Source of the DNA: Treponema sp.
GTDB taxonomy: Bacteria > Spirochaetota > Spirochaetia > Treponematales > Breznakiellaceae
DNA: 33,903 bases
Assembly (NCBI GenBank): GCA_031256635.1
Contig: JAIRQF010000111.1
Coordinates: 1 to 33,903, forward strand
Direction: 5' to 3'
Shown here: positions 4,755-19,176 of the stretch, one piece after another
Layout: every line of letters begins with the position of its first letter
How positions within the stretch are numbered: the first letter of the stretch is position 1
Translations under genes and position numbers: made by a program
Notes under the pieces: model-generated
Database searches by the model: none
Told to the model about the DNA's origin: nothing
What the model saw: the letters and a program-made list of their open reading frames with translations, nothing else

Positions 4755-6074
4755 CTAGAACATTCTCAATTTTTCGTGTAATAGCTTTTTAAACTTTACG
4801 GCTGATTTGTTATTGGGTTCCAATGAAAGAGAGTTTTCGCAGTCAGAAAGCCCCTGAGGATAATCTCCCATGTGATAATATGCCTGTCCCCGCCTGAAAA
4901 GGCAAAACGGCTGGTATGGATTTAATGACAATGAAAGAGTGTAATCGTCTATTGCATTCGAGTACTGCTTAATGACAGAATGAACAACACCTCTGTAATA
5001 AGCGGCTTTATAGGACTGAGAATCAAGCTCCAGAGAAGATGTAAAATCACTAATGGCATCGCTGTACTGTGAGCAGGCGAAATACGCCATTCCCCTGTGT
5101 TTAAAAATAATGGCCCTTATCATTTCGTCAGAGCGGGAGTCTTCGCTGCTCTGTAAAAAATCCTTTATTGCGGGTTTTTTCAGATCAAGTATTTTTGTAT
5201 ACTGATTAATGGCGTCATTAAAACGATTTTGGTTATGGGCGGATAACGCATTTACAAGCAAATCATCAATGTTTGAACCCTCAGTATCAAAATCATCTTC
5301 ATAATCATCATCCATTGATGAGCTCTCAAACGAGTCTTCTTTTTTGCCGCCTGCGTTAAATTGATTTTCGATAAAAAGAAGGCCATCTATTGATTCTTCT
5401 ATTTTTTGAAAAAAACTTTCGCGTCTTTTTCCTATTTGCCTGCTGTAGTTTCTCTGATAACTTCTTATCTCCTGGAAGATAATATCCGCAAGCGAGAGAC
5501 TTGCGTTTACCGCGGCAAGTTTGCGTTTCATCGGCTCGTCAAACGGGCTGAATTCGACTTTATAGACAAGCTCATGTTCAACCTCAGCCCACGCGTCCTG
5601 TAAAATTGTGCGAATTTGTATTTCTACAGTTTTTGTTCCGGGGTATCCGTGTTTATTAAGAATGGCTTTTGGTATGGTTATCAGCAGGTGCGTGGATTCG
5701 TATCCAAATTCCTTAAATGAATAGTGTCCTTTTACATCCCGCTCAACTACATTAAAGTTAATTTTTATTAAGTCTTCTGTTGCGGCAAGATCTTCTATAA
5801 ACGGACATATGATCCTTATTCCCAAAAGATCTGTTATTTTGGGGTCTTTTACGCCGTCTCTTAAAAAGCGTATGTATTTATTAAAGTAGCTTGGAAAATT
5901 CTTTATTCTGCAGTTAACTACAGGGTTTGAATCAAGGGCAGTAAGAATATTATCAATCTGTTCCTTGATTTCATTTACAACATTATGCCTTGCTTCAGAA
6001 TACTTTTCATATTCTTCCTGAATACTGTTTTTATCGGCGAGGGAAATTAAACTGTCATTAGCATTATTTTTCAT
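4755..6074 (-). CDS. RelA/SpoT-type (p)ppGpp synthetase domain fused to C-terminal TPR repeats
   Basis: 439 aa; synthetase-like DLLGIRIICPF, GYESTHLLITIP, VEIQIRTILQDAWAEVEHELVYK; then several TPR units (AIIFKHRGMAYFACSQYSDAISDFTSSLELD..). No HD hydrolase seen. Terminates with TAG. Confidence 0.85.
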   Translation of the reverse strand: MKNNANDSLISLADKNSIQEEYEKYSEARHNVVNEIKEQIDNILTALDSNPVVNCRIKNFPSYFNKYIRFLRDGVKDPKITDLLGIRIICPFIEDLAATEDLIKINFNVVERDVKGHYSFKEFGYESTHLLITIPKAILNKHGYPGTKTVEIQIRTILQDAWAEVEHELVYKVEFSPFDEPMKRKLAAVNASLSLADIIFQEIRSYQRNYSRQIGKRRESFFQKIEESIDGLLFIENQFNAGGKKEDSFESSSMDDDYEDDFDTEGSNIDDLLVNALSAHNQNRFNDAINQYTKILDLKKPAIKDFLQSSEDSRSDEMIRAIIFKHRGMAYFACSQYSDAISDFTSSLELDSQSYKAAYYRGVVHSVIKQYSNAIDDYTLSLSLNPYQPFCLFRRGQAYYHMGDYPQGLSDCENSLSLEPNNKSAVKFKKLLHEKLRMF

Positions 6075-6156: not shown

Positions 6157-7188
6157 TTATTGCTGACTGCGGCTCGGATCTCCAAACGGAGCTTCAGAAG
6201 CCTGTCTTTCGGTTTCAAGATAGCGAAGTACCTGATTCTGTCCAAATCTTTCCATTTCCCATACTTTGCGCGCTTCTTCGCGTGTCTGGATAATATTCCA
6301 TGTGGCTTCATCGTCAATGTCACGGCCGGTATCAAGAACCGCAAGGTCGTAAATAACCGATACATCTTTGAAGTATGTTACAAAGTCGCCGCCGATATCT
6401 CCGACAGCTGAAGGATTGCGTTCAACCCTGAATCCGCCGAACTTTATGAAAGGGGTATTAAACGGATAGAGAGGGACAATTCTGATATCGCGGTTTCTGA
6501 TTTCGGTAAGGTAAGCGGGGTTTCTCCATCTGAGTTCTCCCCAGCCGTCATAGCGAAGGTTACCCATGAAGATCTCTTTTTCAGTGCCTGTTCCGTCAAT
6601 CAATGATACATAAAGGCCGTGAGGGAAATTAAGGCCGTAAACGCGAACCGCTACTTCCCTGATTACACCGACATTCTTGATTACGCCGAATGCAGGGGTT
6701 CCGGGTTCCTGGGACTCAAAGCGGCTCTTGGCAGTCGCCGAATTTCCGGTGGCCTGAATTGTGCCGTCGTCGCTTACAGTCGATACTTCATAAGCGGGGA
6801 TCTCAAATGGCGGTCTTATCGTCGCTGATGAATTCCATGATTCTACAGGGAAAAGAATCCTGACGCCCATTACGGTAGTGAATTCCCTGGATGCGGCTTC
6901 TCTTGTAAAACTGAGAGTCATATTATTAACGGATCTGGCGGAGGCATTAAGAGTTACTTCCCAGTTTTCTATGGCAAGAGAGGTCATCATAAGTGACTTC
7001 TGCTGCGCCGTGAAACTACCGCCGGCTACGTGACCGTAATCCATCAGGGTATGTCGATTTTGATTGGGCGTATCGCTATTGACATTAATATCCGCCGTCA
7101 GCATTGAGAAGTCGATAAGAACACCTTCTTCGGCAAACAACGGAACCGTAAACATCGTAATTACGACCAGAATGAGCAACTTTTTCAT
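6157..7188 (-). CDS. flaA: Flagellar filament outer layer (sheath) protein FlaA
   Basis: Signal peptide MKKLLILVVITMFTVPLFAEEG, FlaA-like body (NVGVIREVAVRVYGLNFPHGLYVSLID..; FIKFGGFRVERNPSAVGDIGGDFVTYFKDVSVIYD). ATG at 7188 has an AAGGAGC SD; the ORF track start at 7209 is probably too long. Confidence 0.9.
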   Translation of the reverse strand: MKKLLILVVITMFTVPLFAEEGVLIDFSMLTADINVNSDTPNQNRHTLMDYGHVAGGSFTAQQKSLMMTSLAIENWEVTLNASARSVNNMTLSFTREAASREFTTVMGVRILFPVESWNSSATIRPPFEIPAYEVSTVSDDGTIQATGNSATAKSRFESQEPGTPAFGVIKNVGVIREVAVRVYGLNFPHGLYVSLIDGTGTEKEIFMGNLRYDGWGELRWRNPAYLTEIRNRDIRIVPLYPFNTPFIKFGGFRVERNPSAVGDIGGDFVTYFKDVSVIYDLAVLDTGRDIDDEATWNIIQTREEARKVWEMERFGQNQVLRYLETERQASEAPFGDPSRSQQ

Positions 7189-7237
7189 GTAAAGCTCCTT
7201 TAAAAACACTAATATAAAAAATTTCTAACTCTCTTTA

Positions 7238-7313: not shown

Positions 7314-7820
7314 TCAATTCCAAAAAAACAATTTGGCATTTTCATGCCGGAAACCTTCGGTATATACAGCGGTGCCTTCAATAAAGAAACGTACATCGCT
7401 TACATACGAAAAATTTCTTAAAATTCCGGCATGGAAGGTACGGAAATTATCAATCGTTACCCCGCCTTCCAAAGGAGGCATTGCCGCGTCCGAAGTAAAA
7501 TTAACATACACCACCCCTTCCCGGTATAAAAGCGATATAAGTTTGGTTTCTTTCGGAAAAAGAGGAAGCAAATCCGGGGTTACAGGCCCTAAAAGAGTTT
7601 CCTCCGCGTACCGGATAATGTCGCCTTCTTTCGTTTCGGCGTGTTTCAGCATCCGGTCTTCTACAACAATTCCGCCGTCTTTTAAAGTATAAAATACAAA
7701 AGTCCGCCTTGCAAGGTCAAGGAAAAAAAAATCAAATACGACAACCGCCGCCAAAACAGCGATAAATGACAGACAAATAATCAGGGGAGTACTAAATAAT
7801 TTTTTAAAATCAGCGCTCAT
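7314..7820 (-). CDS. GerMN-domain-like membrane-anchored protein
   Basis: 168 aa with N-terminal TM and GerMN-like core (ETLLGPVTPDLLPLFPKETKLISLLYREGVVYVNFTSDA). Confidence 0.7.
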   Translation of the reverse strand: MSADFKKLFSTPLIICLSFIAVLAAVVVFDFFFLDLARRTFVFYTLKDGGIVVEDRMLKHAETKEGDIIRYAEETLLGPVTPDLLPLFPKETKLISLLYREGVVYVNFTSDAAMPPLEGGVTIDNFRTFHAGILRNFSYVSDVRFFIEGTAVYTEGFRHENAKLFFWN

Positions 7821-8875
7821 TAACGTTCAAATATACCAATAAAATCAGATATTCCATTGTATAATGAATTTGTGAACTTTTGCAAGCCTTCTTCGCTGGT
7901 CATAAGAAGCGCGTCCTGCCGGTTGGATACAAAACCCAGCTCAACAAGAACCGCAGGCATGCGGCTGTTTCTTACAACAAACCAGTCGTTTGCCTTGCGT
8001 CCCCTGGACGGCATGGCGCTGTTAAAAGCATCTGAAAAACCTTTAAGAATTGAATCGGCAAGAAGAATGCTTTCGGTAGTGAACTCTTCCTCAAGCATGG
8101 CGTTTAAAATTGCCGTAATGTCCGGTGAATAATTATGCCCTGTAGAATCAAGGAGAGTGCGGCGGTGGCCTGATGTTATATGCCACACTTCGTATCCCCT
8201 GGCGTTTGTATTAAGTGCGGAGTTTGCGTGTATCGAAATAAAGATAACAGCTTCATTCTCCTTTACAATAACCGAGTTGGCCATATCCGCGCGCTGTTCA
8301 AGGCTGATAAAAATATCAGTATCCCTTGTCATTAAAATCCGCTTGTCAGGATATGTTTGAGTAAGCCTGTCTCTTAGCGCAAGAGCAACCCGCAGGGTAA
8401 TGTCTTTTTCGTTCACCTGCGTGTTTTTACCGTTAGCTGCAATTGTTCCGACAGCACCAGGATCCCTTCCGCCGTGCCCCGGATCGATAACAATGGCGGC
8501 AATCCGGAAATGCGATTTGTCTTCATGCAGGCGGGTAAACGTGTTTTTAAGAGTAGAGACAAAATTATCCGGAAAGACCAAAATTCCGTTCCTGCTGTAA
8601 GGAAGCTGAACATTGAAAAGTTCACGGTTATTAAATAAAAGGTAGCCTGATTCGCCTTCGCGGGAAGCTACGGAAAATGAGCTGAAATGATCTCCTACAT
8701 TGAACATTCCGTCTCTGAACAGGGGATCCCAGCGGAACTGCACCTGCTGATTCGCGGATATCTGTGACAGCATGTTAATGGTTTCATCAAGGGAAAGCGC
8801 TGAGAGGGAAGAAAATGAAATGAGCGGCAATAAGAGGAGAAGAAATAAAAATTTCAAACGCCTTAACTTCTTCAT
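7820..8875 (-). CDS. N-acetylmuramoyl-L-alanine amidase (Amidase_3 family)
   Basis: Signal peptide; IVIDPGHGGRDPGAVG, FISIHANSA, VELGFVSNRQDALLM motifs. Confidence 0.92.
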   Translation of the reverse strand: MKKLRRLKFLFLLLLLPLISFSSLSALSLDETINMLSQISANQQVQFRWDPLFRDGMFNVGDHFSSFSVASREGESGYLLFNNRELFNVQLPYSRNGILVFPDNFVSTLKNTFTRLHEDKSHFRIAAIVIDPGHGGRDPGAVGTIAANGKNTQVNEKDITLRVALALRDRLTQTYPDKRILMTRDTDIFISLEQRADMANSVIVKENEAVIFISIHANSALNTNARGYEVWHITSGHRRTLLDSTGHNYSPDITAILNAMLEEEFTTESILLADSILKGFSDAFNSAMPSRGRKANDWFVVRNSRMPAVLVELGFVSNRQDALLMTSEEGLQKFTNSLYNGISDFIGIFER

Positions 8876-10533
8876 TTTTCTCCCAAAGAATCAATGTAGC
8901 AGACGGCTCCCTGATAGGAGCCGCGGATTAGCGCAGCCCAAAAAGAGCGTCCCAGTATTACTTTATTTTCGGCATTTTCACAGGCAATCGGGAGGGTAAA
9001 TCCTGTAAGCTGCCGCACCGCGTCCAACGCTTCATCTACTGTTCTTCCCATGTAGTCTTTTAGCCCTGATGACTGAAAATCATTAAATGGGATTATTAAC
9101 CACGAATCATACCTTTGGTATGCAGTATTTACATATTCCGGGAGTAAATTTAGCGCATTTCTCAAATCATCTGTTAACCGGAAAGCATCAGGCGGGAATT
9201 TAAATTTTTCATCTTCTCCGTGCTGCAAGCCAGAGACCTCTGCCGTATGTTCCGTGCGAGTTTCTTTGAAAAGAAACTCCTGCGTTTCTGAGTCTTTGGG
9301 ATCTAGCCTGATCAGAATTGATCGCGCGGCTTTTTCGGCAGCAGCAACAGCTGTCTCTCTTTCCGGTGCGGAAGCGATAATATTTCCGCATTTTGATACA
9401 TTATTCTCCGGAAAGAAAACCTTATCCCCTTCCTTTATACGAAGGAAAAAATTATTAATGTTATTATCAGCGATGCTTCCAGTATCTCCGATTCCGGAAA
9501 TTTGCTTTACCGTTCCGGGAATTGAAATAAAAGCCCTTTCAGCGCATGTCCAATTTTTTTGCAGGGTTAGACCCTCCGGTTTATAGCCCATCGCCATTAA
9601 AATAGCGGCTTTTACAGGTAAAGCGCCTGATGAATAAGGGTATGTCCAGCCTGACATGTAACCACCTGAAAGACGGGCCGCAATCTCGCCAATCATCGGC
9701 CCTTGGGATGTTAATTTAATGTCACCCTTGGCGGAACCTATGTTATCTTTCCCCGCAAGTCCCAATGCGCGCACTCCGGCGCGGAATGTTTCAAGCAGGG
9801 AAAATTGTTTTTCTTCTTCGATGACTGTCGGCATTGTATGACCCATTTCAATAAAAAAGGGCGGGAAAAAAATATGCCTGTCCGCAAGTCCGCATATTGT
9901 GATTTCACCGTGATACACAATCGCATCAACTGAAAACTCAGGCCCGTCCATGTATTTTTCTGCAATAGCGCGTCCTGAGCGGGAAAAACCAATCGCCTCT
10001 TTCGCGGCTTTTTCAAAATCATCAATACTGTCCACTCTGCGGCAGCCTCTGCTTCCCATGTTGTCAACAGGTTTGATAACCAGAGGAAACCGGTAATGTG
10101 CCTCAGCGAGAGGTGTGAATGATTTAATGCGGGATTGTATATCAGCGGCAGTAATTGTAAAAAACTCAGGAGATGGGAGGGAAGCCTTTTTAAAACATTC
10201 GCGCATTCTCGCTTTATCCGAAGCGTTAAGCGCGGCCTGGTATGGAATGCCGGGAAGTCCTAATTTTTCGGCAGTCCACGCGACACTCGCGGAGAAATCA
10301 GTGCCTGCGGTCATAATTCCCAATCGGGAGTTTTTTCCCTGTATGGAGCGCGCGAAGGTTTCGATTCCTTCCTTATCTTTTAGATCGATTTGTTCAAACC
10401 TGTCCGCCATCCCAATACATGGCGCAGAAGAGCTGCCATCAAGAACGACAGCATAAAACCCCGATTCTTTCGCTATTTCAATCGCGGGTCCCTGCATTAC
10501 ACCCGCACCAAGGATTATGATTGTTTCTTTCAT
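8872..10533 (-). CDS. ATP-grasp family enzyme (carbamoyl-phosphate-synthase-like/peptide- or sugar-ligase type)
   Basis: 553 aa; IILGAGVMQGPAIEIAKESGFYAVVLDG, FPLVIKPVDNMGSRGCRRVDS, IGEIAARLSGGYMSGWTYPYSSG; overlaps the amidase start by 4 nt (ATGA). Confidence 0.85.
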   Translation of the reverse strand: MKETIIILGAGVMQGPAIEIAKESGFYAVVLDGSSSAPCIGMADRFEQIDLKDKEGIETFARSIQGKNSRLGIMTAGTDFSASVAWTAEKLGLPGIPYQAALNASDKARMRECFKKASLPSPEFFTITAADIQSRIKSFTPLAEAHYRFPLVIKPVDNMGSRGCRRVDSIDDFEKAAKEAIGFSRSGRAIAEKYMDGPEFSVDAIVYHGEITICGLADRHIFFPPFFIEMGHTMPTVIEEEKQFSLLETFRAGVRALGLAGKDNIGSAKGDIKLTSQGPMIGEIAARLSGGYMSGWTYPYSSGALPVKAAILMAMGYKPEGLTLQKNWTCAERAFISIPGTVKQISGIGDTGSIADNNINNFFLRIKEGDKVFFPENNVSKCGNIIASAPERETAVAAAEKAARSILIRLDPKDSETQEFLFKETRTEHTAEVSGLQHGEDEKFKFPPDAFRLTDDLRNALNLLPEYVNTAYQRYDSWLIIPFNDFQSSGLKDYMGRTVDEALDAVRQLTGFTLPIACENAENKVILGRSFWAALIRGSYQGAVCYIDSLGEK

Positions 10534-10556
10534 ATTAAATTTTCGGTTTAATTAGA

Positions 10557-10690
10557 GTCTGTCTATAATGTGGACACATTATTGACAGACCTCCTTAAAA
10601 AACGAATTTTCGCAGCCTGCATGTAAACCGAAGGTTTGAAGGCGAGAAAATGCGAGGTCTGTCCGCAAAGTAACCGACTTTGTGGACAGA
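10557..10690. repeat. Multi-hairpin palindromic element (MITE/REP-like candidate)
   Basis: Hairpin 1: 10557-10572/10575-10590 (15 of 16 bp). Hairpin 3: 10658-10671/10677-10690 (13 of 14 bp). Alternative long-range stem GACAGACCTC 10584-10593/GAGGTCTGTC 10654-10663 (10 of 10 bp) with inner AAACC-GAA-GGTTT. Confidence 0.8.
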
Positions 10691-10815
10691 TACTATTTAA
10701 GGTGATGATAAACCCGGACTTGGGCTGGTATTTTAAGGGAAAGAATCAAATTTTTGGATTAAATTTTTAACCTGATAATTTGATAATAGTCACCTCTGAT
10801 AAAACGTAAAAATAC

Positions 10816-12657
10816 CTATACAGCAGTTTGCGCATAAACCTCAAAAGTATCTCCTAACTTAAAAATCTTACTGATTGCCAACAGTATCCAATATATAAAA
10901 CTTTTTCTGTTAACCGCGAATTTTCCCAAAAGCGGGAATCGTTCAGGATGATGTCCGATAACTTCAAATTTTTTAACTTTGAATCCGGCTAATAAAAGCG
11001 CATTTTTGCACATTTTAGGAGACCATACAGTATAGTGATCGGCAGGACTTGCGGATAAAAAGTTTTTAAGGCCGGTTTGCCCTGAGATACCTGAATAAGA
11101 TGGTGTTGAAAACGCAAGAATGCCTCCGGGTTTTAGAAGTTTTTTTATTTCATTTAAAACGATTAGGCAATCGGTGAAGTGTTCAATAACATACCAGAGA
11201 GTTATTACATCGTAAGAATGAGGAATGAAATGTTTGTCATTTTGGATAATTGGAAAAAAACCTTGTATTGCGGAAATTCCCAGTTTTTCATTTATATAAC
11301 GAACGGCATCTTCTGCCGGATCAATTCCAAAAGGAGAGAAGCCTTCTTCTTTTGCAGCAGCGAGAAACGGACCATACGCGCATCCGATATCCAACAATGA
11401 AGGACTGTCTGTTTTAAATTCGTTTTCATTTTTCTGCGTGTCTTTACAGGATAAATTCAGGATAATTTTTAGCCTTCGTTTTGCCGCATTTTTAATATTG
11501 TCAAAATCATCTAAATATGTTTTACCGTATTGTTTTTTATATGATTCAAAAAAGTACTCTTTCTCATATTCAATTGGCGCAGGACATAATCTATCCATAT
11601 AAATTATGCCGCATTTTTTACAGCGGCGGTAAGTGCGGTCTTTAAAACGGGCGATGCTCTTTTCCGGAGTATCATTACCGCAAACAGGGCAGCGCCTGTT
11701 AACCGCCGGTAAAAAGCTGCCGCAAACCTGCGCAAGGTTTTCATTTTTTGAAAATAAAAAATTATTAACAACAGAGTCATACAGAGGTTTTTGTTCCAAA
11801 ATCATTTTTTCCCTGTTTAGCTCTGTATTAACATTTCTAAATATTTTCCTGACATCGTTAAAGCCTGCGGCTTTGGCGAGCTTTTTATGATATGGGGTAG
11901 GGTGATCCAGCAAGACAACAGCTCCGGCGAAAAGCGCTTCGTAGGCGGTGATTCCGTAATGGGTAATTACAAGATCATATTCGCCGATATGCTGTGCAAG
12001 ATTGACAATAGCCTCCGATACCTTAACATTTTTTATTTTACTTTGAATATTGTCCGCTGTTAAAGCTCCTCTTAGAAGCGTTATATCAATATCCTGAGAA
12101 TTTTTCATTTCAGATAATCTGCGCGCTGTTTTTATGCCAAGACCCGCAGTATCTTCCTGACCAAATGTTATAAGGATTTTTTGTATATGACAACTTTTGT
12201 TTTTTGACGCAGAAGCGTTAAAGTCCTTGTTAATTAATAAAGCAGGAGATGTTATATTGGCGGAAAGTGAAATAAATTTATAAGGGACCAATATATCGAC
12301 AAGAAAATCAAAACGATCCCTGTGGCAGCCGCCTTCATCAATGCCGATTACAGGAGCCAGATTTTTCCAGAAAGTGATTTCGTTTAACGAGGTTTGATAC
12401 CGGTCAAGAATAATTAAACCGAAAGTTTCAAAAGATTTTTCATTTTTAAAAAGCCAATCCGGATTAAAATCCCTTGATTTTAACAGATTTTCTATCTGCG
12501 GTGTTTTATCTTTCTGAGGCAAATAAAGAACAGCGGCGCGGTCTATTTTGCGCAAATCCTTTACCAATGTTATACACCGGTTTAAATGTCCTCCTCCGCG
12601 GCCTTTTTCTGCTGTGGGGACAACCAGTATCTGTGAAGCAATTTGTCCGCTTTTCAT
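10816..12657 (-). CDS. Fusion of PseG-like nucleotide-sugar hydrolase/GT-B domain, zinc ribbon, and class I SAM methyltransferase
   Basis: N-term GRGGGHLNRCITLVKDL..YDLVITHYGITAYEALFAGAVVLL; CPVCG-x18-CKKCG; LLDIGCAYGPFLAAAKEEGFSPFGIDP..WYVIEHFTDCLIVLNEIKKLLKPGG. Start at 12657 makes a TGATG overlap with the upstream gene; ATG 12678 is the alternative. Confidence 0.82.
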   Translation of the reverse strand: MKSGQIASQILVVPTAEKGRGGGHLNRCITLVKDLRKIDRAAVLYLPQKDKTPQIENLLKSRDFNPDWLFKNEKSFETFGLIILDRYQTSLNEITFWKNLAPVIGIDEGGCHRDRFDFLVDILVPYKFISLSANITSPALLINKDFNASASKNKSCHIQKILITFGQEDTAGLGIKTARRLSEMKNSQDIDITLLRGALTADNIQSKIKNVKVSEAIVNLAQHIGEYDLVITHYGITAYEALFAGAVVLLDHPTPYHKKLAKAAGFNDVRKIFRNVNTELNREKMILEQKPLYDSVVNNFLFSKNENLAQVCGSFLPAVNRRCPVCGNDTPEKSIARFKDRTYRRCKKCGIIYMDRLCPAPIEYEKEYFFESYKKQYGKTYLDDFDNIKNAAKRRLKIILNLSCKDTQKNENEFKTDSPSLLDIGCAYGPFLAAAKEEGFSPFGIDPAEDAVRYINEKLGISAIQGFFPIIQNDKHFIPHSYDVITLWYVIEHFTDCLIVLNEIKKLLKPGGILAFSTPSYSGISGQTGLKNFLSASPADHYTVWSPKMCKNALLLAGFKVKKFEVIGHHPERFPLLGKFAVNRKSFIYWILLAISKIFKLGDTFEVYAQTAV

Positions 12658-13331
12658 CAGCGAAATATCTCCCGGCATTTTTTAATTATTGTTTCTCCGT
12701 TATAACGCAGCTCTTCTTCCGGCAGCGCGGAATAAAGTTCCGCTGCGCGATCAAAATCCTCTTGTGTATCAATTGTCAGGCGGATATCGGGATAATTCCA
12801 CTTTTCAGGCGCGACAGGACGGTGAATGTTGAAAAGGTCAGGATGATTGTAAAGATACGGGCAGACATGCTCATGATCGTAAGGGAGGACAGTTTCGATT
12901 TCAGCCCGAAGGAGAGCGATGGCGGAGGCGGATTCGACGCCCGCGCCGTAAGGCAGTCCTTTATAACCTGCGTAATCGGCGTTATGTGAAAGAGCTTCAT
13001 TGTTGATTGAGCAGGCAGCGTCGGCAAATACAAAGGGATTATCGCCTGTCGCCCTTATGAGGCGGTCTATTGAATATTTGCGGATTACACAACAAAAACG
13101 GTTAAGAACATCTTCTTTTGAGCCTGCGAAAATATCAAAACCGGCTTTTTCCACAAGAGGTTCGAAACTTGAATATGAATCCTCTGTGCATGCGAGCACT
13201 CTTAAATCTGCGCTCACGCGGTTCAACGCTTCCATTACGCGAAATACAACAGGTTCTCCGTCAAGCAGGAGAAGAGCCTTTCCCGGTAATCTTGATGAAT
13301 CAATTCGTGCTTGTAAAATAACTGCCGTCAA
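12657..13331 (-). CDS. SpsF/CMP-sugar cytidylyltransferase-like nucleotidyltransferase
   Basis: MTAVILQARIDSSRLPGKALLLLDGEPVVFRVMEAL, RLIRATGDNPFVFAD, RLTIDTQEDFDRA. Confidence 0.88.
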   Translation of the reverse strand: MTAVILQARIDSSRLPGKALLLLDGEPVVFRVMEALNRVSADLRVLACTEDSYSSFEPLVEKAGFDIFAGSKEDVLNRFCCVIRKYSIDRLIRATGDNPFVFADAACSINNEALSHNADYAGYKGLPYGAGVESASAIALLRAEIETVLPYDHEHVCPYLYNHPDLFNIHRPVAPEKWNYPDIRLTIDTQEDFDRAAELYSALPEEELRYNGETIIKKCREIFR

Positions 13332-13332
13332 A

Positions 13333-14322
13333 TTATTCTCCAGATACCCACCGGCCGGTTACGGCCTCTGCGCCGCATCTCCATCTGAATTTGTTTTTTT
13401 TTACCCATTTTCTGCTTTCTTTAAACTCATCCCATGCCGTGAAAAGGTCATCTCCTGATTTATATAAAAAGCCGGGAAAACGGTATAACGGCAGATGCGC
13501 GTAATCGTTTCTGAATACGGGAGCGAGATTTTTTAAATAGAAGCGCTTGTAGCTGTTTTCAACCGTATTATTCTCGGAAGGCAGCTCTCCGCCATAGGAA
13601 AGTTTTAAATGAAGGCTCAGCGCGATTTCTTCTCCCCATAAATGAGAGCGAAAACCAAAATCCATTAGCTGCCAATGCGTGTGAATTAAAGTTGTGTCAA
13701 AGCCGCCTGTATTTATAAAACGCTGCCTGTCGTAGATTCCGATCCCGTCAAATGGATAAAGGCTTAAATCCCCTTCATTACCAGGCTCCATAAAAATGGT
13801 GCGTATCTTTTTACGCCGGGTCATCGGAATAATAAGGGTCGGCAATGTTTCATAATTTGAGTTCACAATTAACGGAATGGTGCAGAGCCTTTTTATCATG
13901 CGGCTTGCAGGCTTGTCGTTTTTTTCTTCGCAATTTACAATCAGGCGCTCGGCCATCCGCTTCGCGGTTCCTCCTGCGATTATTTTCATATCGCTTCGCA
14001 TAACAAAAAAAAGCGGACTTTCAATTTCCTGAGCGGCAAGGTTTATTTGCTCTCCAAGGCTTATTTCATTTTCAGGGAGTATAAATCGGACAAAAGGAAA
14101 ACGTACGGACAGCTCTTCAATCTCATAGTGAGGTGAAGGCGATTCTACGGAAATTACATTGTCAAATCCTGATTTTTCAAGATCCTTTAAAAATGATCTT
14201 GCAGGATATCCTGGCCTGTTAAGGATTACAGCTGCGATTCCTGTGGACGCAATACGTTCCTTGACTCCTACGGCGGTGTAGGGCGTTATCTTTTCATTAA
14301 AAATTGTAGGTATAGTATTCAT
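13333..14322 (-). CDS. GT-A (family 2-like) glycosyltransferase
   Basis: MNTIPTIFNEKI..; PARSFLKDLEKSGFDNVISVESPSP.., SLGEQINLAAQEIESPLFFVMRSDMKII, DRQRFINTGGFDTTLIHTHWQLMDFGFRSHLWGEEI. ATG at 14322 gives a 26-nt overlap with the upstream gene; the track start at 14460 would overlap 164 nt. Confidence 0.65.
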   Translation of the reverse strand: MNTIPTIFNEKITPYTAVGVKERIASTGIAAVILNRPGYPARSFLKDLEKSGFDNVISVESPSPHYEIEELSVRFPFVRFILPENEISLGEQINLAAQEIESPLFFVMRSDMKIIAGGTAKRMAERLIVNCEEKNDKPASRMIKRLCTIPLIVNSNYETLPTLIIPMTRRKKIRTIFMEPGNEGDLSLYPFDGIGIYDRQRFINTGGFDTTLIHTHWQLMDFGFRSHLWGEEIALSLHLKLSYGGELPSENNTVENSYKRFYLKNLAPVFRNDYAHLPLYRFPGFLYKSGDDLFTAWDEFKESRKWVKKNKFRWRCGAEAVTGRWVSGE

Positions 14323-15874
14323 CGCAATTTTCGCAGAGTCCCGAATAATTTCTTTTACATTGTTCTTTATAATATTTCTCTCCGTTTTGCCAGATAGCGG
14401 CAATGGAGTCAGTAAAAACATTTCCCAATACCATGTTTTTATCTCCCTTAAAAACCGCAAGATTTTCCCTGCATAAAGGAACGGTGCCGTCTGTTAAAAC
14501 AGGGAAATCCCTCATTATATGCCAGCAGCATTGGCGGATAACAGGAGATATGTCGGAAGCCTGTTTTCTTTCCATATGACCGCAGAAGTCATCGTATTTC
14601 TGAATTATAATATTTTTTTCGCCGTTAGGGGATGCGTCTTTCCAGTAACGGTAAAACTTTTCAGTATCATCTTCTGATCCTTTTAAGCGCACCGCTTGCA
14701 CATAACAATCGTTTGGGAATAACGAAAGAAGTTTCCTTGCGCAGCTTTCCGCTTCCGCGAATCCCGCTGTGCGGAGTTCTGTGTACCGCTTTGAATCTGT
14801 CGTGTCAAGCGAAACAATCCATGAAAGGGGAGAGAGAACGTTTATTCTTCCGTTAACTGTTTTTGCCAACTGTGCGCACTCTTCGAGTTCTTCGTTTTTC
14901 CAGCCGATGCCTGATGTTTCAATGATTAGCGCAAGCTTGCCGCGTGTCAGTACGGATTTTATCAATTTCATTTTTTCAGGATGAAGGCTTAACTCTCCCC
15001 ATAAAGAAAGATCGATTACCGCATCTTGCGAAAAATCGATAATATTATCCAGCAGGGTTTCAAATTTACCGCAGTCCATATAATCGTTTTGCGCTGACTG
15101 GTCTGCAATGGAAGGATATGGGCAGATAATGCATTTCTGGGGACAGCCGCCATAGACCTGTATTGGAAAAAAACTTGGCAAGGTTCTTAGTATTTCTGGC
15201 TGCTGTGCCACAATTCGCTCGACATCGGAGGCGGAGGGAATCTTCCCGTTTCCCGCAGCAAGAAAATTATTAAGAAGCATTACATTGCGTTTTGAATCGG
15301 CGCAAAGATTGATTCTGTGACAGCGAAGATCAACGGAAGAAACCTCAGTCTCAATATCAAATGCGTTAATGTCTTTCTGGATGACGGAAAATAGCATGTC
15401 TCTTTCAACCGGCCCGTCGTTATCACCCAGTATTTTCACGAGTATCGCCGCGGTTCCTTTGGAGAGTATTTCAGGAGCGAGTCCGTAAGGCCAGCCATCG
15501 GCGTAAGAATATTCCGCGGCAAAACGAAGGTGCCTGTCTGCGATATTTCCCGCAAGAACAGGATCGAGGAATGGACAGTCTGCAAAGGCAAAATAGGCAA
15601 GATCAAAGTCTTCCTGCAATTCTGCGGTTTTTTCAAGCACACTCCGTTTTGTCCATGTATCTCTCTGTTCGATATGAAATTCCTGCGAGTTTTTTAAAGT
15701 AAGATTTTCAGGTCTACCGGAAACATTTGAGGAGCAAAACAGTGCTATTTTATTAACTCCGGGAAATTGCGCCGCCTGTTCAATGGAAAGCTGTAAGGCG
15801 TTTTTTCCGTTTAAAACTTCCCGGAAAGCATGATGAGTGAGGCTTCCGGCATATAAAATAAGAATGCTGTTCAT
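14297..15874 (-). CDS. Radical SAM/SPASM protein with N-terminal nucleotidyltransferase-like domain (spiro-SPASM type)
   Basis: Central CPQKCIIC (CX3CX2C) radical SAM motif, C-terminal Cys cluster (CCWHIMRDFPVLTDGTVPLCREN..C..YSGLCENCDEYY), N-terminal cytidylyltransferase-like region (YFAFADCPFLDPVLAGNIADRHL). Confidence 0.85.
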   Translation of the reverse strand: MNSILILYAGSLTHHAFREVLNGKNALQLSIEQAAQFPGVNKIALFCSSNVSGRPENLTLKNSQEFHIEQRDTWTKRSVLEKTAELQEDFDLAYFAFADCPFLDPVLAGNIADRHLRFAAEYSYADGWPYGLAPEILSKGTAAILVKILGDNDGPVERDMLFSVIQKDINAFDIETEVSSVDLRCHRINLCADSKRNVMLLNNFLAAGNGKIPSASDVERIVAQQPEILRTLPSFFPIQVYGGCPQKCIICPYPSIADQSAQNDYMDCGKFETLLDNIIDFSQDAVIDLSLWGELSLHPEKMKLIKSVLTRGKLALIIETSGIGWKNEELEECAQLAKTVNGRINVLSPLSWIVSLDTTDSKRYTELRTAGFAEAESCARKLLSLFPNDCYVQAVRLKGSEDDTEKFYRYWKDASPNGEKNIIIQKYDDFCGHMERKQASDISPVIRQCCWHIMRDFPVLTDGTVPLCRENLAVFKGDKNMVLGNVFTDSIAAIWQNGEKYYKEQCKRNYSGLCENCDEYYTYNF

Positions 15875-15920: not shown

Positions 15921-17327
15921 TTACTTCATATACTTTTCGATATATTCCTGCTTAACCCTCAGCAAATCCTCCCTCGGAAGGTGGGAGAGAACTTTCCAGC
16001 CAAGATCAAGCGTTACGCCGATATCGCGGTTTTCATATTCACCCTGGGACAGGAATGACTGTTCAAAGATATCGCCGAATTTCAGATAACATTTGTCGGC
16101 TGCGGATAATTCCTCTTCTCCGATAATGGACGCAAGATTTCTTATCTGTTTTACTCTTGCGTAGGCGGCGAAAAGCTGGCTTGACACATCCTTGTGATCC
16201 TCCCTTGTCATTCCCTCCCCGATACCGTCTTTCATTAAGCGCGAAAGACTTGGAAGGCCCGCGACAGGCGGATAAATGCCGCGCTGATAAAGTTCGCGCT
16301 CAAGGACTATCTGCCCTTCTGTAATGTAACCTGAAAGATCCGGTATAGGATGGCTGATATCATCATTGGGCATCGAAAGAATCGGAATCTGGGTGATGGA
16401 ACCATTTGATCCCTTGATCTTTCCCGCTCTTTCATAAAGCGAGGCGAGATCGGAATAAAGGTAACCGGGGTACCCCTTGCGGCTTGGAACTTCCGAACGG
16501 ATTGAAGAAACTTCGCGTAACGCCTCGCAGTAGTTAGTCATGTCTGTCATCACTACAAGGACATGCATGTTCTTCTCGTACGCTAGATATTCAGCGGCGG
16601 TAAGCGCGCATCTAGGAGCGACAAGCCGTTCCAGTGAAGGGGAGTCCGCAAGAGAAAGAAAGACTACGACATTCGATAGAACGCCTGAATGTTCAAAATC
16701 ATCCAGGAAGAAGCGCGCGACATCGTTTTTTACTCCCATTGCGCAGAATACAATCACGAATTGTCTGGATGTTCCCGGCTGCGGCGCGCCATTATTGTCA
16801 AATGATAAAATTTTCGCCTGACGGACAATTTGCGCCGCAAGACGGTTGTGGGGAAGGCCGTTACCTGAAAATACCGGAAGTTTTTGTCCGCGAATCAGCG
16901 TGTTCATTCCGTCAATCGAAGATATTCCTGTCTGAATAAAATCACGCGGATATGTCCGCGCGTAGGGATTTATGGGAAGTCCGTTTATATCAAGAGTCTT
17001 TGATGAAAAAATGCTGCCGTATCCGTCGATCGGCTCTCCAAGACCGTTAAAAATGCGTCCGAGTAAACCCATACCTACGCGGAGTTCCATGGGTTTGTCA
17101 AGAAACTCAACTCTTGTGTCATGGGCGGAAAGTCCTGTGCTGTTTCCGAATATTTGAATGGCTGCCCAGTCTTCGCTTAAATCAAGCACGCGTCCCAGTT
17201 TTTTATTATTATCCCTGTCATAAACAGCGACCATGTCATTGAAGCCTGTACCCTTGCACCGGGATGTGATCACAACAGGCCCTTCTATCCGCGAAAGCCC
17301 CCTGTACTCAATGCCTCTCATTTTCAT
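15921..17327 (-). CDS. atpB: V-type ATPase subunit B (second cluster)
   Basis: 468 aa, intact; [75 protein letters not shown]. Confidence 0.95.
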
Positions 17328-19176
17328 ATCTCCGTTTGTATGAAGAAGGATCGCTTACGGATCGGTAAGCCCTTTCAAGCTCTTCAAGGGACGCTCGCAT
17401 TTTCTCTTCAAATTCATTAATTCCGTCAGCTTTATTTTCAAGAACATTCTCATTGCTTACTGTGCTTTTAAGGCGTGAAAGACCTTCTTTTAAACCTGTG
17501 GAAGAGATTTTTGTCATTGGCGCGCCGAGATCTATGCATGTGTACGCGCGTTCGTGAAACTCCATTATAAGGTGCAGCAGACGAATCTGTTTTTCTGGAA
17601 CACAGAACATGTCGGTCTTATCAAAAGAGTTCTGCTGTAAAAATCCGTCTTTGATTATCTGCGCGGTAAGAAGAATAAGTTTTTGCTCGTCAGGAAGAGC
17701 GTCAGGGCCGATAAGGCGCACAATTTCAGCTAACCTCTGTTCCTGCTTTAATAAATCAAGGCAGGCCTTGCGCACTTTTACCCAATTGGGATTAACCTTT
17801 TCCCACCAGCGTTGAACCTCTTCTGCGTATTCAGAGTAGCTGTCTGTCCAGCTTATCGCGGGGTAATGCCGGGCGTTCGCAAGGTCCCGGTCCAAAGCCC
17901 AGAAACAACGTATAAAGCGTTTTGTGTGCTGCGTTACAGGTTCTGAAAAATCACCGCCCGGAGGAGAGACAGCCCCGATTATCGAAACAGATCCTTCAAG
18001 GCCGTTTAACGTTTTAACCCGTCCGGCCCTTTCATAGAATTCAGCAAGCCGCGTCGGCAGATAGGCGGGAAAGCCTTCTTCCGCCGGCATCTCTTCCATG
18101 CGCCCTGAAAGTTCGCGTAATGCTTCGGCCCAGCGGCTTGTTGAATCCGCCATTATAGCGACATGGTACCCCATGTCTCTGTAAAACTCCGCAAGAGTTA
18201 CGCCTGTATAAATTGAAACTTCACGTGCCGCCACAGGCATATTGGAAGTGTTTGCGATTAAAAGCGTTCTTTCCATGAGGCTTCGTCCGGTTCTTGGATC
18301 CAAAAGCTGGGGGAACTCAGTAAGCACGTCAGTCATTTCATTGCCGCGCTCTCCGCAGCCGATGTAGATAATAACGTCCGCGTCGCACCATTTCGCGACA
18401 GCGTGCTGAGTCATTGTCTTTCCCGTGCCGAATCCGCCGGGAATGGCCGCGGTTCCGCCTTTTGACAGCGGAAAGAAAATGTCGATAACGCGCTGTCCTG
18501 TAATAAGCGGCTGATCTTTTAAAAGCTGCGATGCGACAGGGCGGGGAAGGCGCACAGGCCACCACTGCGCGAATGTGATTTCATCGCCGGCTGAAGTTTT
18601 TGCCGCGATGTCAAAAATTGAATAATCACCCTGCGGGCACAAATACGTTATGTGATTATCCGCGCCCGGGGAAAAACCTGAAAGCTGTTTCCACGGAACC
18701 ATTATCCTGCAAGTGATGCTCTCGGTTTCTTTTATACAGCCGAGTATTAAACCGGGTTTTGCTTCTGTCTTTTCACCTGCGCCTATCTTTGCAGCTAACG
18801 CGGCGTCGGGAATAAAGCGCCACTTTTTTTGTGTGTCCAAAGGAGCGCCCCTTCCGCCGGGTTTCATAAAAGCTCCGTCCTGATCATAAAGGAGAGCAAG
18901 GGGACGCTGTATTCCGTCGTAAATTGTACCTATAAGACCAGGGCCCAGAAGGGCGGAAAGAGGGCGGCCTGTTGACCATGCAGGGCTTCCTGTTTTAAGT
19001 CCTGTGTTATCTTCATAAACCTGTATTACCGCTGTTTCTCCCTCCAGACGGACTATTTCACCAATGATCCGGTTATCTCCGACTTCAACAAGATCGAAAA
19101 GCCCTGCTTCTCCAAGACCGGATGCGCGTATAATCGGCCCTGAAATACGCAGAACTTTTCCTGTCTGTTTATTCAT
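17308..19176 (-). CDS. atpA: V-type ATPase subunit A (second cluster)
   Basis: 622 aa; P-loop [80 protein letters not shown]. Confidence 0.96.

Follow-up and report, generated by a model that had tools for sequence, protein, structure and literature searches.

Which process is served by eight genes that lie on the minus strand of a Treponema sp. contig (GenBank assembly GCA_031256635.1, JAIRQF010000111.1), in uninterrupted order and ending with the gene for the flagellar filament sheath protein FlaA? The whole stretch of 33,903 nucleotides that was analysed is here called the window, all coordinates are window positions, and the assembly of the source genome (G000) is 89% complete. The genes encode, in order, a radical S-adenosylmethionine (SAM) protein with a SPASM domain (spiro-SPASM), a glycosyltransferase (GT), an SpsF-like cytidylyltransferase, a PseG-like hydrolase fused to a methyltransferase, an ATP-grasp ligase, an amidase, a GerMN protein and FlaA. 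An earlier reading of the window made from its sequence alone (the sequence-only reading) had proposed a glycan pathway, with modification of the flagellum as a reasonable hypothesis. We report that the genes form part of an ancient pathway of sugar modification, kept by nearly every flagellated spirochaete sampled, and it is very probable that the cluster is a nonulosonate pathway dedicated to the flagellum. More specifically, and with less assurance, we favour the view that it forms the flaA-linked half of a genome-split, pseudaminate-like nonulosonate pathway which glycosylates flagellin and in which the ATP-grasp ligase replaces the acetyltransferase PseH. The gene content, synteny, flagellum-restricted distribution, missing PseH and loss of a sequence motif described below were all computed in this analysis.

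Conservation of the arrangement was assessed by comparing 20-kb loci around spiro-SPASM in spirochaete genomes. The eight-gene order recurs in nearly all Spirochaetia loci that are not split, and a core of spiro-SPASM, SpsF and PseG recurs over much of the phylum. Among 86 genomes from 39 families, SpsF was found near spiro-SPASM in 61 (27 families), PseG in 53 (23 families) and flaA, within 10 kb, in 21 (10 families). A scan of named genomes, for which a narrower spiro-SPASM alignment was used as the broad one was too divergent, returned 80 loci, including those of Treponema putidum, T. vincentii, Brucepastera and Breznakiella, with the full block present in most contigs of sufficient length. 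The gene order recurs in most sufficiently long spirochaete loci and is far beyond chance. The sequence-only reading had made its proposal depend on conserved order in relatives, and such order is found across Spirochaetia.

A link to the flagellum could not be tested in our phylum sample of 149 genomes since all 149 have flagellin (spiro-SPASM exceeded its cut-off in 130 and NeuB was present in 143), and was therefore examined in a class sample of 198 genomes, 157 with flagellin and 41 without. Spiro-SPASM is present in 127 of the 198, the ATP-grasp ligase in 126 and an orthologue of NeuB, unlinked to the cluster, in 132, with corresponding counts of zero, zero and one in the 41 flagellin-negative genomes, the single NeuB orthologue belonging to an 81%-complete metagenome-assembled genome (MAG); Fisher's test gives p ~1e-23 for each gene, values that ignore phylogeny. 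Families f51 and f53 contain flagellated carriers beside non-flagellated non-carriers, and absence of the genes tracks absence of flagellin. Flagellin is present in a Borrelia-type family (f5, 20 genomes) from which spiro-SPASM, the ATP-grasp ligase and the NeuB orthologue are all absent; the ten other flagellated genomes without spiro-SPASM are mostly incomplete assemblies, two of them with fragments. Chromosomes of the four f5 genomes checked measure about 0.91-0.96 Mb. FlaB in four f5 genomes has E and D where the other sequences shown have mostly S or N (IEIEQL...NRIAD in f5 versus VEVSQL...DRIAS in the others). The FlaB glycosylation motifs of T. denticola lie at exactly these two serines, and the substitution in Borrelia has been noted (PMC7431986). 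The phylogenetic profile and the conserved neighbourhoods, with two cluster genes and the unlinked NeuB co-occurring with flagellin, support the core of the earlier idea of a flagellar glycan pathway; radical SAM chemistry as an obligatory step of the shared pathway does not stand, as discussed below.

The cytidylyltransferase gene (12657..13331, minus strand) encodes an SpsF/PseF-like protein (PF02348, 94 bits), a candidate synthetase of the cytidine monophosphate (CMP)-nonulosonate, whose best PDB relative is the Leptospira cytidylyltransferase 6oew and whose loop residues Q7, R9, S12, R14 and K18 are conserved in 128 homologues. The fusion gene (10816..12678, minus strand) joins a PseG-like hydrolase of uridine diphosphate (UDP)-sugars to a Zn-ribbon SAM methyltransferase. 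The protein reaches 48.9 bits with the PseG model TIGR03590, whose equivalog cut-off is 153.6, and the PseG motif G-x-G-H-x-x-R (G28, G30, H31 and R34) is conserved in 100 homologues; the methyltransferase part matches PF13489 (Methyltransf_23). Both genes are as the sequence-only reading had described them. Treponemataceae combine SpsF, PseG and the methyltransferase in one protein of 800-900 aa, and in Leptospiraceae-like genomes an SpsF-PseG fusion adjoins spiro-SPASM.

The GT (13333..14322, minus strand; 329 aa from the ATG at 14322) matched no sequence family in curated-model searches, and a sequence search of the PDB gave nothing useful. Its AlphaFold model is confident (predicted local distance difference test, pLDDT, 89.9), and since the 50 best PDB matches of the model in Foldseek are all polypeptide GalNAc-transferases (GT27; E ~1e-11), a GT-A fold is supported and the label given earlier from the letters is borne out. 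Conserved motifs of the protein are GGFD and W-Q-x-x-D-x-x-x-R, and the gene stands beside spiro-SPASM only in Spirochaetia families and in family f14. For attaching the sugar to Ser/Thr of FlaB in Spirochaetia, this predicted GT-A enzyme is the leading candidate.

No NeuB-like synthase and no PseB, PseC, PseF or PseH had been seen by the sequence-only reading, and the window indeed holds neither NeuB nor PseC, but relatives of both are located elsewhere in the same genome. NeuB is on contig C98 (G000:C98; NeuB family 207.6 bits versus a cut-off of 22.1, with the PseI and NnaB equivalog cut-offs not reached) and a PseC-like aminotransferase is on contig C84 (298 bits, under the cut-off of 423.5). 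A second NeuB match, on contig C40, was rejected as a DAHP synthase. PseB-like and PseC-like genes are adjacent in a T. pallidum-sized genome (1,139,633 bp) and in several other Spirochaetia; in G019, of the T. denticola/T. putidum genus, a few kb separate them. In the Spirochaetia loci examined, the PseB/PseC-type genes are followed by a xanthine-dehydrogenase-like trio (MoCoBD_1, Fer2_2 and FAD_binding_5), located at L080:11051-14589 in the reduced 1.14 Mb genome and also found in L082, L084, L085, L088, L090 and L095 and partly in L089; the trio may provide for an oxidation of the glycan acid. Two genomes of a single genus have the NeuB orthologue within a frame of 790 aa that contains one in-frame TGA (G246:C27:1323-2399 and G275:C37:32739-33806), an arrangement that may be a fusion, a case of recoding or a pseudogene.

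PseH exceeded its cut-off in none of 29 genomes; the T. pallidum-sized genome, G006 and G096 gave no match whatever, and several others gave weak GNAT matches. The N-acylation step is therefore without the enzyme that normally performs it, and an amide ligase of the ATP-grasp type is available in the cluster. The gene concerned (8872..10533, minus strand) encodes a carboxylate-amine ligase of the L-amino-acid-ligase type, an ATP-grasp call that is confirmed by PF13535 (ATP-grasp_4, 44.8 bits) and PF18603 (LAL_C2, 42.7 bits), both over cut-off; a PDB relative is the L-amino acid ligase BL00235 (E 9.7e-19). Outside the class the ligase is fused to an FMN_dh domain (PF01070, 54 and 208 bits in two genomes), and fusion to a domain of the type of alpha-hydroxy-acid dehydrogenases dependent on flavin mononucleotide (FMN) suggests a hydroxy- or keto-acid substrate. 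Frames of 720-800 aa with this fusion (L062, L065 and others) occur in most sampled genomes outside the class, and the Spirochaetia ligase has a different, unnamed C-terminal extension of 130 aa. On balance, we lean towards the ATP-grasp ligase and the methyltransferase making the acyl group of the glycan.

We infer each substrate, the order of the steps and flagellin as the target of the pathway as follows. A PseB-like dehydratase and a PseC-like aminotransferase would make a UDP-4-amino sugar, to the amine of which the ATP-grasp ligase would join a carboxylic acid as an amide, in place of PseH. The PseG-fused methyltransferase would O-methylate the acyl group, PseG would strip the UDP, NeuB would condense the product with phosphoenolpyruvate and SpsF would form the CMP-sugar. 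In Spirochaetia, the GT-A enzyme would then transfer the sugar to Ser/Thr of FlaB, with spiro-SPASM acting as an accessory whose SPASM site would be needed and whose radical reaction would be optional.

Several points weigh against this proposal. The evidence for a role in flagellin glycosylation consists of distribution, synteny and changes at the FlaB sites and is all computational, the disregard of phylogeny in the p-values given above applies, and the organism names behind our G handles are deduced from gene content and likeness to named loci. Many deep lineages have neither the methyltransferase nor the GT in the cluster. Outside Spirochaetia, most lineages do not carry the ATP-grasp gene beside spiro-SPASM, and within Spirochaetia the operon neighbour of that gene is the amidase. 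A search for PseB in the source genome, 89% complete as stated, did not find it. As the PseG, PseB, PseC and NeuB relatives score below the Pse equivalog cut-offs, the product could have the Pse, the Leg or another configuration.

The neighbourhood of the ligase leads to the alternative that survives best, although we consider it unlikely, in which the same flagellin nonulosonate pathway operates, the ATP-grasp ligase belongs to a cell-wall module with the amidase and GerMN that enables the periplasmic flagellum, and an unrecognised GNAT enzyme performs the N-acylation. The ATP-grasp gene overlaps the amidase gene by 4 nt, it remains with amidase-GerMN-flaA where the cluster is split in G138 (L061), and its distant relatives include D-Ala-D-Ala ligases; the weak GNAT matches in several genomes would also suit this explanation. 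However, the T. pallidum-sized genome, G006 and G096 retain the rest of the pathway with zero GNAT match, and in the first of these (L058) the ligase gene lies away from the amidase. The FMN_dh-type fusion outside the class suits chemistry of an acyl acid and not of the wall, and Borrelia-type genomes keep their flagella with the ATP-grasp gene absent.

It is distinctly improbable that the sugar is placed on FlaA, lipopolysaccharide or another envelope molecule and that the link to the flagellum is indirect. The cluster does border flaA and not flaB, genes of the SpsF and NeuB types often serve surface polysaccharides, and Leptospira has separate nonulosonate clusters (PMC3438082), but spiro-SPASM, the ATP-grasp ligase and NeuB are practically restricted to flagellated genomes and Leptospira FlaB1 carries putative glycans (PMC13144727).

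Within the proposed flagellin pathway, the part played by spiro-SPASM (14297..15874, minus strand; 525 aa) has to be considered separately. The protein is a clear member of TIGR04321 (572 bits versus a cut-off of 250, residues 4-525) with a SPASM domain over cut-off (PF13186, 34.7 bits). Its radical SAM domain carries CX3CX2C at Cys244, Cys248 and Cys251 and scores 25.4 against PF04055, below the cut-off of 29.5; its SPASM cysteines are Cys450, Cys468, Cys514 and Cys517, four being invariant versus the classical seven. A PDB sequence search with the protein gave nothing useful. Foldseek matched the C-terminal half of the predicted structure (pLDDT 93.7) to the radical SAM/SPASM enzymes SuiB, BtrN and anSME and the N-terminal domain to 6oew, in agreement with the earlier description of a radical SAM/SPASM protein with a nucleotidyltransferase-like N-terminus. 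As 6oew is also the best PDB relative of the window SpsF, the N-terminal domain appears to be an SpsF paralogue; in the alignment, the Q/R/S/R/K loop of SpsF has no conserved equivalent in this domain.

Across 177 spiro-SPASM sequences, CX3CX2C is kept in 109 and missing in 68; of the four SPASM cysteines, the first three occur in all 177 and the last in 176. Motif-negative sequences are without all three motif cysteines (each at 3-6%), and the motif changed at least 16-17 times on two trees, a Dollo count with a midpoint root giving 19 losses. In T. putidum and T. vincentii the motif is absent and the gene is retained. Loss of the motif with the gene kept implies that the radical reaction is dispensable in these many relatives and that the SPASM site is not, and its occurrence in the T. 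putidum genus implies that radical SAM chemistry is not obligatory in the shared pathway. The sequence-only reading had suggested that a radical SAM enzyme and an ATP-grasp ligase could build an amino-acylated or carbon-linked sugar; the amino-acylated form fits a putative amide-forming step of the ligase, and the part given to the radical SAM enzyme is weakened by the motif losses. Spiro-SPASM appears to be a conserved accessory protein whose Fe-S (or metal) SPASM site is indispensable throughout and whose radical reaction is optional and lineage-specific. More tentatively, it could be a repeatedly de-radicalised protein (~17-19 losses) in which the metal site of SPASM and a degenerate domain resembling CMP-sugar synthetases have stayed fixed; flagellin glycosylation would then depend on it as a metal-dependent scaffold, a sensor or a carrier of substrate. 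From the accessible literature we know of no description of a non-catalytic use of the SPASM fold; our literature search did not find the name spiro-SPASM in use, nor anything joining radical SAM, spirochaete, flagella and glycosylation. It is highly improbable that the central catalyst is instead the radical SAM enzyme, making a sugar that is carbon-linked or rearranged. In favour of this reading, the window protein retains CX3CX2C and the SPASM cysteines and counts BtrN, an amino-cyclitol dehydrogenase, among its structural relatives; against it, the sequences without the motif include those of T. putidum and T. vincentii, near relatives of T. denticola, whose FlaB glycan is established.

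The layout at the junctions agrees with the sequence-only reading, which had noted five co-directional genes, the first four tightly overlapping or abutting, and a run through to flaA. The list of open reading frames gives a TTG start for the GT, and the likelier ATG results in a 26-nt overlap with the spiro-SPASM gene; the SpsF gene abuts the GT gene and is overlapped by the PseG/methyltransferase gene at a TGATGA junction. A gap of 282 nt (10534-10815) separates the latter from the ATP-grasp gene, and a search of it revealed no gene and no repeat family, only an inverted repeat with 16-nt arms that forms a hairpin (10557..10590). Beyond the ATP-grasp gene, and all on the minus strand, are the syntenic partners N-acetylmuramoyl-L-alanine amidase (7820..8875; Amidase_3, PF01520, 162 bits) and the GerMN/Germane-domain protein (7314..7820; PF10646, 33 bits), followed by FlaA (6157..7209; PF04620, 213 bits). 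In three termite-gut Treponema MAG loci (L210, L234 and L238) the block is without PseG/methyltransferase and ATP-grasp, with spiro-SPASM, GT, SpsF, amidase, GerMN and FlaA remaining; L234 has an ATP-grasp frame on the opposite strand. Genes for the V-ATPase A and B subunits lie directly upstream in the same direction (15921-19176) and were not counted in the cluster because they are not beside it in the other genomes examined. Downstream of flaA is a protein with RelA/SpoT and TPR domains (4755-6074), which is kept there in many relatives.

The present analysis names a candidate gene set for the spirochaete flagellin glycan that is compact and widely conserved, occurs in a T. pallidum-sized genome and is lacking in Borrelia-type genomes, and the genes probably behind this unusual flagellar acid sugar can now be tested individually. 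If the proposal is true, mutants in NeuB, SpsF or PseG would lose the whole glycan, ATP-grasp mutants would have a smaller glycan and methyltransferase mutants one that is 14 Da smaller. A further outcome is a radical SAM family in which the signature motif was lost many times while the remainder stays conserved. TIGR04321, the NCBIfam family to which the window protein belongs, has a name that implies no function, and the repeated motif loss was measured here.

To our knowledge, no gene set has been assigned to the whole spirochaete flagellin glycan, and we know of no assignment of the present cluster genes to the 450.2 Da glycan of T. denticola. The latter glycan is also required for motility; a 2017 study is said to have described it as a mono-N-acetyl nonulosonate of pseudaminate configuration bearing a 2-methoxy-4,5,6-trihydroxyhexanoyl group at N7, and the formula so reported computes to 450.185. 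An acyl group of this kind would call for an amide ligase and a methyltransferase, which matches the two unusual enzymes of the cluster. This 450.2 Da modification of FlaB, which likewise comes from a flagellated spirochaete, is essential for filament assembly (PMC9481697). The GT27 polypeptide GalNAc-transferases have the GT-A fold in common with the window GT at an identity of ~12% and a template modelling (TM) score of ~0.5-0.6.

Among bacterial flagellin systems, the available part of the report on the Shewanella oneidensis sfm operon (sfmABCDE) describes, as in our cluster and its unlinked partner, a NeuB-like synthase, a SAM methyltransferase and an ATP-grasp_4 protein, together with a pseudaminate-like flagellin sugar bearing an O-methylated moiety (PMC3765264). 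The operon differs in having an IlvB-like thiamine pyrophosphate (TPP) enzyme and a reductase, and the same part of that source reports no spiro-SPASM, PseG-methyltransferase fusion or GT of the present kind (PMC3765264). With the PseB-C-H-G-I-F pathway of Campylobacter and Helicobacter, spirochaetes share enzymes of the PseB, PseC, PseG, NeuB (PseI) and SpsF (PseF) types, restricted to flagellated genomes; they differ in that these relatives all score below the Pse equivalog cut-offs, in having no PseH above cut-off, in a PseG that is fused to a methyltransferase (in Treponemataceae to SpsF as well) and in adding the ATP-grasp ligase and spiro-SPASM.

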